A program made the position numbers and the translations under genes. From the NCBI GenBank assembly GCA_017411405.1, contig JAFQQE010000006.1, positions 1-64,000 on the forward strand: a stretch of DNA of 64,000 bases, in the 5' to 3' direction. Source of the stretch: Bacilli bacterium. Its GTDB lineage: Bacteria > Bacillota_I > Bacilli_A > RF39 > UBA660. Of this stretch, positions 41,065-42,033 are shown in pieces. The notes beneath the pieces are model-generated. The model saw only the letters and a program-made list of their open reading frames with translations. It was not told where the DNA came from and ran no database searches. Numbering within the stretch: position 1 is the first letter of the stretch; each line of letters opens with the position of its first letter.

Positions 41065-42033
41065 CTAAATTTTTAATTTATTTTTCTTTTTTAAAAAAAT
41101 TGTAGCACCAACTAATCCAATTAATGATATTGTTCCCATTATTATACTACTTCCAATATCATCAAATGTTTTAGGATTTTCTTCTTCAGGAATTCCTGAT
41201 TGTCCTCCTCCAGAAGAAACTTCTTGCCATTTAGCATAGAAAGTTGTATCTTCTTCTATACCAGTTTCTGAGTTCATAACATCATAATATGATTTACCAT
41301 CATTTGTATAAAATCCAGTAAATTTATATCCATCTCTTGTAGGTTTTTCAAATGTTTCATAATTAAAATTAATAATATCTTCTATATTTATAGTTTTTAC
41401 ATCATTTTTGAAAGTACCACCATTTGCATCAAAAATAACTTTATATTCTATTTTTACAGCACTTGCATCTATTTCAATATCTCCATCAATTAAATCATTG
41501 TTTATAAAAATTTCACCAGTTTCAAAATTATAAGAATATTTTTCAGTATCAACTATATTATCATTTATTTTAACACTAATTGAATTTGGTAATTTATATT
41601 CATCAAGCGCAACTAATTTTGCAGTAAAATCTTTTGTCCCAATTACTATAAAGTTATTATTTCCTAAATTACCATCAGTTGTCACATTATCTGTTGTTAC
41701 ATTAAGATTTTCTAAATTAAATTTAACATTTGTTGGTTTTAAAGTATAATAAAGCCAAATTGTACTTTCTCGTATTACACTATAATCAGCAAGCGTTCTT
41801 CCGTTTTCCAATTCTACATCACCATATCTTAATTTTAGGTTTTCAGGTGGATAAGTATTATCTACTTGATAAATCTTTTCTTTTACTGACTCAATTGTAT
41901 CACTTGATTCAACCTCTAAAGTAATATTACCTCCTGTTAATTTTTTTATATATATTTCCATAGCAGACACTTTAAACGGAAGCATAATAAACATTGCAAT
42001 TGCTATTATCAATAAAAACCTATATTTTTTCAT
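41065..42033 (-). CDS. secreted, sortase-anchored protein with N-terminal ubiquitin-like domain
   Basis: 322 aa. Signal peptide 1-24 ending VSA, so cleavage leaves MEIYIKKLTGGNITLEVE, whose Met is the first residue of ubiquitin. Residues 25-101 align to ubiquitin with 37 of 76 positions identical and one inserted residue; K6, K27 and K29 positions are kept, K48 and K63 are not, I44 is Arg, and the final Gly-Gly is replaced, so it cannot be conjugated. Then a beta-rich linker domain, an InlB_B repeat (VIFDANGGTF ... GYKFTGFYTNDGKSYYD), and NPKTFDD, a helix and KKK as sorting signal. Promoter region shared with a divergent sortase. Confidence 0.92.
   Translation of the reverse strand: MKKYRFLLIIAIAMFIMLPFKVSAMEIYIKKLTGGNITLEVESSDTIESVKEKIYQVDNTYPPENLKLRYGDVELENGRTLADYSVIRESTIWLYYTLKPTNVKFNLENLNVTTDNVTTDGNLGNNNFIVIGTKDFTAKLVALDEYKLPNSISVKINDNIVDTEKYSYNFETGEIFINNDLIDGDIEIDASAVKIEYKVIFDANGGTFKNDVKTINIEDIINFNYETFEKPTRDGYKFTGFYTNDGKSYYDVMNSETGIEEDTTFYAKWQEVSSGGGQSGIPEEENPKTFDDIGSSIIMGTISLIGLVGATIFLKKKNKLKI

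Follow-up and report, generated by a model that had tools for sequence, protein, structure and literature searches.

Ubiquitin is treated as a hallmark of eukaryotes (animals, plants and protists). In the literature searched, the only signal-peptide-bearing bacterial ubiquitin that we found to have been studied is BfUbb of B. fragilis, and it is a weapon. What, then, is a ubiquitin-like domain doing at the front of a predicted surface protein of a Bacilli bacterium? The gene lies in a stretch of 64,000 nucleotides that was analyzed as a whole (the window). Our preferred reading, to which we give a probability of about 0.58, is that ubiquitin was acquired from a eukaryote and now serves as the outermost recognition head, at the N-terminus, of a surface protein anchored to the cell wall.

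The window protein and its ubiquitin domain

The gene (41065-42033, minus strand) is an intact open reading frame of 322 aa with an ATG start. Its features are as follows.

41962..42033, minus strand: signal peptide, residues 1-24 (ending PFKVSA), with n, h and c regions and V-S-A at -3/-1 in the sequence; predicted cleavage site
41740..41961, minus strand: ubiquitin domain, residues 25-98 (Pfam PF00240, PDB phmmer, AlphaFold, Foldseek)
41446..41739, minus strand: middle beta-rich domain, residues 99-196, its first part within the diverged block described below
41230..41445, minus strand: List-Bact (InlB-type) repeat, residues 197-268 (PF09479, 9.3e-9; TIGR02543, 3.4e-5)
41065..41178, minus strand: NPKT sorting motif (residues 286-289), hydrophobic stretch, positive tail and stop (sequence)

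The N-terminus is signal-peptide-like (MKKYRFLLIIAIAMFIMLPFKVSA), with V-S-A at -3 to -1. Residue 25, at mature position +1, is a methionine aligned with ubiquitin Met1, and cleavage just before it is predicted by the -3/-1 rule. The tail consists of NPKTF, a hydrophobic stretch and KKKNKLK, and NPKTF is kept in L019-L021. Judged by its sequence, the protein appears to be a sortase-anchored surface protein with a signal peptide, an [NL]PxT motif, a hydrophobic stretch and a positive tail. The sequence-only reading had proposed a signal peptide ending VSA, a domain starting at ubiquitin Met1, an InlB-type repeat and an NPKT sorting signal. The sequence bore out this layout, with Pfam placing the repeat at 197-268 (9.3e-9) and the cleavage site being a prediction. 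A Pfam search with the middle domain (residues 99-196) gave no match, and the full-length AlphaFold model was poor (pLDDT 55). Contamination or misassembly was rejected: the architecture recurs in several metagenome assemblies that are independent of one another, as well as on the closed plasmid of a strain in culture, the 73.7 kb contig carries bacterial genes, and the GC of the gene equals that of its surroundings.

The Pfam ubiquitin family (PF00240) matched residues 27-95 with E=2.1e-14 and 53.5 bits against a cut-off of 25.4. In the PDB phmmer search, 60 of the 60 matches listed were ubiquitin chains or ubiquitin-derived proteins. Alignment with human ubiquitin gave 37 identical positions of 76 (about 49%) with a one-residue insertion, the same count as had been obtained by hand. 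The local BLOSUM62 score was 176 against ubiquitin and 117 against NEDD8, and the shuffle mean was 24.5. The AlphaFold model of residues 25-101 had a pLDDT of 91.3, and Foldseek placed ubiquitin structures at the top (TM about 0.95, E 4.6e-11). The claim of a ubiquitin-like domain thus survived both the modeling of residues 25-101 and the score comparison with another beta-grasp protein. The higher score against ubiquitin than against NEDD8 shows true ubiquitin ancestry, and the model predicts a ubiquitin fold.

K6, K27 and K29 are kept in the domain; K11, K33, K48, K63, I44, H68, V70 and Gly-Gly are lost, the I44 patch through the changes I44R, H68W and V70Y. The domain ends in LYYTLKPT, rather than in the C-terminal LRGG of a conjugating modifier. 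The kept and lost residues named in the sequence-only reading (K6, K27 and K29; K48, K63, the I44 patch and Gly-Gly) agreed with the alignment. The domain has no Gly-Gly, so it would be unable to act as a tag, as had been stated there. Conjugation or Bil-type ubiquitination of the bacterial kind was rejected, because there is no Gly-Gly and no E2-like neighbour. A search for E2 (PF00179) in the genome, which is 78% complete, gave no match, and the control also gave none.

Mobile setting, sortases and relatives

The following features surround the gene.

37461..38735, minus strand: tyrosine integrase, end of the element (PF00589, 8.4e-20; same order in L032)
38738..38965, minus strand: HTH_17 excisionase-like protein (PF12728, 2e-10)
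39044..39778, minus strand: second class B sortase (TIGR03064, 3.5e-58; syntenic in L032)
40338..40613, minus strand: HU-type DNA-binding protein (PF00216, 1e-31)
41047..43039, no strand: block of ~2 kb with the sortase and ubiquitin-protein genes (sharp blastn edges in L031, L032 and L039)
42154..42984, plus strand: class B sortase, divergent neighbour of the ubiquitin gene (TIGR03064, 1.4e-49)
46441..48126, minus strand: MobA/VirD2-type relaxase (PF03432, 1.1e-27)
63209..63835, minus strand: TraG-type P-loop conjugation ATPase, end of the open reading frame (PF19044, 1.4e-8)

An ArdC-like protein is also encoded on the element. The ubiquitin-protein gene thus sits on an integrative, apparently conjugative element, and the integrase, HTH protein, relaxase, ArdC and TraG-like genes agree with the earlier statement that gene and sortase share one element. 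L032 matched the window at 79-80% DNA identity over a whole shared run: sortase, ubiquitin protein, small protein, HU, small protein, class B sortase, HTH and integrase. L031 and L039 have only about 2 kb in common with the window (sortase and ubiquitin gene), and in both the shared DNA ends at the same point near 43039. There the block lies in other surroundings, with an impB/mucB-family polymerase gene or with a serine recombinase and a Mob_Pre gene. The ~2 kb block therefore occurs in different mobile-element settings. Two other proteins were observed in the window: a SUFU (Suppressor of fused) domain protein at 45162-45902 (1.5e-39), on the mobile element, and, at 43124-44434, one with an RsgI-like anti-sigma factor domain and, behind it, a long stretch rich in cysteine.

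The sequence-only reading had placed a class B sortase three genes away. It was found at 39044-39778, with three genes between it and the ubiquitin-protein gene, but the adjoining class B sortase at 42154-42984 had been overlooked. The adjoining enzyme keeps its His and Cys and has Lys at the expected catalytic Arg, which class B sortases normally carry. This Lys was seen in all six aligned copies of its lineage. Sortases of the adjoining type lie beside ubiquitin genes in L028, L031, L032, L038 and L039, and a class B sortase lies beside the ubiquitin gene in seven loci. In a search of 282 genomes of the bacterial family, the five best sortase matches all adjoined ubiquitin genes. This class B sortase family is common there (139 of the 282 genomes), so in general the enzyme is not reserved for ubiquitin proteins; a dedicated sortase in the strict sense was ruled out, although its closest members still lie beside ubiquitin genes. 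Several ubiquitin-carrying family members had no such sortase within the stretch read, and two further sortases of the genome lie on another contig.

Ubiquitin matches above the Pfam cut-off were present in 12 of 291 sampled genomes of the same bacterial family, in one of five genomes of the genus and in 11 of 385 genomes of the order sample; the class sample added two genomes of another family. Those relatives that have names are Bacilli genomes assembled from metagenomes of goat cecum, goat colon and water deer rectum. The order of domains recurs among the relatives, and the L018 protein is identical to the window protein. A further 15 Bacillota proteins, ranging from those of other uncultured Bacilli to that of Ruminococcus albus 7, have the ubiquitin domain directly after a signal peptide on surface-type proteins. 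Across the 16 Bacillota proteins, the signal-peptide alanine directly precedes the ubiquitin domain, Met stands at +1 in 14, identity to human ubiquitin ranges from 87% down to 30%, and Gly-Gly is absent from all 16 aligned. Their downstream modules vary (Flg_new, Flg_new_2, DUF6273, Fn3-associated and a weak CBM_X2) and are surface modules by type. Searching plasmid records with tblastn yielded WP_013483628.1, annotated 'ubiquitin family protein', on plasmid pRUMAL01 of Ruminococcus albus 7, with a signal peptide followed by a ubiquitin domain 87% identical to human. On the ubiquitin tree, which did not resolve the point, the Bacillota copies as one clade gave p 0.358; a single bacterial origin of all copies is thus neither supported nor rejected as one Bacillota clade by these sequences. 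L013 and L015 were discarded as false matches. In L012/L017 (G278), a single ubiquitin gene is interrupted by a frame change, and the surface protein at L038 8607-9611 is split before its sorting tail.

Divergence of the head and its conserved face

DNA of the window was compared with that of L019 and L039. For the ubiquitin domain and the first part of the middle domain, identity was 52-78%, against ~85-98% for the signal peptide, the List-Bact repeat, the intergenic stretch and the larger part of the sortase. Against L019, the ubiquitin domain had 65% nucleotide identity and a dS of 1.12. The signal peptide and the repeat had 89-93% nucleotide identity, and the intergenic stretch had about 93%; dS stayed at 0.22-0.46 across the repeat, the middle domain and the signal peptide. 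The dS distances near saturation are rough. The List-Bact repeats of the two proteins are 91% identical, whereas the ubiquitin domains are only 60% identical. The dN/dS of the ubiquitin domain was 0.32, indicating purifying selection. Accelerated amino-acid change under positive selection was rejected, since dN/dS was below 1 and dS itself was raised.

On the ubiquitin tree, the window domain grouped with L036 (support 95/86 in the larger set and 80/82 in the smaller set), whereas its repeat is 91% identical to that of L019 and 45% to that of L036. A tree constrained to make window and L019 sisters was rejected with p=0.034 for this pair, which was chosen post hoc. The simplest reading of the pattern is that the head was replaced on a conserved scaffold. 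Very fast divergence, rather than replacement, could also lie behind the high dS in the head.

Nine family members all have E16, E18, S19, S20, D21, E24, K29, G53, R54 and D58 in common, while their I44, I36, F4 and TEK patches have drifted. The mean frequency of the top residue in these members was 0.90 for the Asp58/helix-1 face vs 0.57 for the I44 patch. The Asp58 face was chosen after inspection of the alignment. Structural needs (helix capping, K27/K29 salt bridges) may also account for some of its conservation, and for both reasons the permutation value of 0.0001 is too favorable. The alignment suggests that the face retained in this lineage is the one around Asp58 and that the I44 face has drifted. 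Most ubiquitin-binding domains use the I44 face, not the Asp58 face.

Displayed ubiquitin elsewhere and its possible role

Similar arrangements were found in Gram-negative-type sequences.

L045 1866-2243, plus strand: IPTL-CTERM-tailed ubiquitin protein (also L046 and L047)
L055 4890-5816, plus strand: signal peptide, ubiquitin and autotransporter-like barrel (IMG/VR contig)
L049 7908-16067 and L050 3905-8174: Pseudoalteromonas shioyasakiensis megaplasmid adhesins, ubiquitin domain at the mature N-terminus
L051 4808-5134, plus strand: signal peptide and complete ubiquitin ending LRGG (viral-collection contig)

The three IMG/VR contigs L045-L047 encode a signal peptide, near-exact ubiquitin and an IPTL-CTERM tail (TIGR04174, 2.7e-8), and terminase- and portal-like genes, read by eye, make them phage-like. 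INPHARED phage records gave no match. The barrel of the L055 protein scored just under the Pfam cut-off, and the giant Pseudoalteromonas adhesin with a ubiquitin domain is Ig/cadherin-like and 2.7 thousand residues long. The L051 product is unanchored, unlike the other Gram-negative-type examples. Gly-Gly is absent from every anchored member, Bacillota and Gram-negative-type alike. The sequence-only reading had treated the window protein as a single case. The protein itself was confirmed, but it is one member of a larger set whose anchors differ. We give slightly less than even odds to the broader view that ubiquitin surface display is a recurrent bacterial strategy, in which ubiquitin taken from eukaryotes or their viruses serves, with Met1 free, as an exchangeable recognition head. 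The anchors would be those that each lineage uses (sortase, IPTL-CTERM, autotransporter-like barrel or giant adhesin), and the carriers would be integrative elements, plasmids and phages.

BfUbb, the product of a Gram-negative host, is secreted as a free antibacterial protein of 76 residues with a terminal cysteine (PMC3352274, PMC5705921) and is used against other B. fragilis strains (PMC5705921). Both cases involve a horizontally acquired ubiquitin that lost Gly-Gly, in a gut bacterium with patchy strain distribution (PMC3352274, PMC5705921). As in BfUbb, the predicted signal peptide of the window protein ends exactly at Met1 and Gly-Gly is lost. In contrast to a free product of ~76 residues, the window protein has 322 aa with a stalk and an NPKT anchor; its ubiquitin is more diverged and forms the tip of a multi-domain sortase-anchored protein, encoded on an integrative element with a sortase adjoining. 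Like InlB-type/List-Bact surface proteins of Bacillota, it has a signal peptide, a Flg_new repeat, an NPxT signal and a class B sortase nearby, but its N-terminal module is ubiquitin instead of leucine-rich repeats or Ig-like adhesive domains. MucBP/MUB-type and SraP-type modules bring a beta-grasp (ubiquitin-like) fold to anchored Gram-positive adhesins. Those modules share the fold only, whereas here the sequence is that of ubiquitin (about 49%; relatives up to 87%).

In the mechanism that we propose for the recognition head, the signal peptide would direct export and be cut just before ubiquitin Met1. A sortase, most likely one of the element's two class B enzymes, would join NPKT to the cell wall. 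The middle domain and the List-Bact repeat, to judge from domain type, would form a stalk, so the ubiquitin fold would face outward with Met1 free. The head would act through non-covalent protein-protein contact without tag function, in this lineage probably via the Asp58/helix-1 face rather than the I44 face. A head that varies on a constant scaffold, together with the mobility of sortase and gene, fits a variable adhesion or contact-recognition factor.

Three other roles were weighed against this one. An anchored counterpart of BfUbb, a contact-dependent antibacterial factor whose variable head sets which competitors are hit, seems unlikely. Mobile-element carriage and head variation fit competition genes, and BfUbb, which lacks a terminal glycine and whose signal peptide is removed right in front of Met1, kills by itself (PMC5705921). 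However, BfUbb is small and released whereas the anchored proteins here are large, and no immunity gene was seen beside the ubiquitin-protein gene. Bovine ubiquitin is inactive on B. fragilis, so the fold alone does not kill (PMC5705921). Mimicry of a host or protist protein is quite improbable. A surface ubiquitin would here engage ubiquitin receptors of eukaryotes, such as those that bind extracellular ubiquitin at the cell surface, or, once a gut protist has engulfed the bacterium, ubiquitin-binding proteins. R. albus, L019, L028 and L029 retain L8, I44, H68 and V70 or I, the gut of goats and deer has yielded relatives, and extracellular ubiquitin has been discussed in connection with CXCR4; but the window copy, L036-L038 and L040 have lost the I44 patch, and an anchored bacterial protein outside cells encounters few ubiquitin-binding proteins. 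With its I44 patch destroyed (I44R, H68W, V70Y), the window copy is unlikely to engage in classical ubiquitin-pathway mimicry, although several relatives keep the patch, and the earlier suggestion of a ubiquitin mimic did not hold up for it. The accompanying suggestion of a host-contact surface is possible.

The idea of a sturdy structural cap, with ubiquitin kept for fast folding and protease resistance and having no specific partner, we regard as very unlikely. Ubiquitin is very stable, beta-grasp modules are known in Gram-positive adhesins, and much of the ubiquitin surface has drifted here, all of which would suit a cap. It is at odds with the invariance of exposed E18, S20, D21, E24, R54 and D58 in the nine family members and with a head that diverges over a conserved scaffold.

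As BfUbb is already known, bacterial secreted ubiquitin as a kind is not new. No papers pairing ubiquitin with IPTL-CTERM or sortase-anchored proteins were found in a search lying mostly outside subscription journals. The sortase-anchored multi-domain form, its spread in Bacillota and the parallels with other anchors were not found described. The series from 87% to about 30% identity, always exported and never conjugatable when anchored, probes the ubiquitin surface outside its pathway. It lets one ask which face stays once the ubiquitin pathway is gone, and as R. albus 7 is a cultured strain, this question is testable now. Its WP_013483628.1 resembles the window protein in having a signal peptide, ubiquitin and an extracellular-type domain without Gly-Gly. 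It differs in that no sortase signal was seen, the C-terminal domain is another one, and all seven lysines and the I44 patch are intact. The ubiquitin proteins of the R. albus plasmid (L044 9926-10666) and of another Bacilli family (L041 4891-5586) have a similar C-terminal domain, and both loci also share a related small membrane protein upstream.
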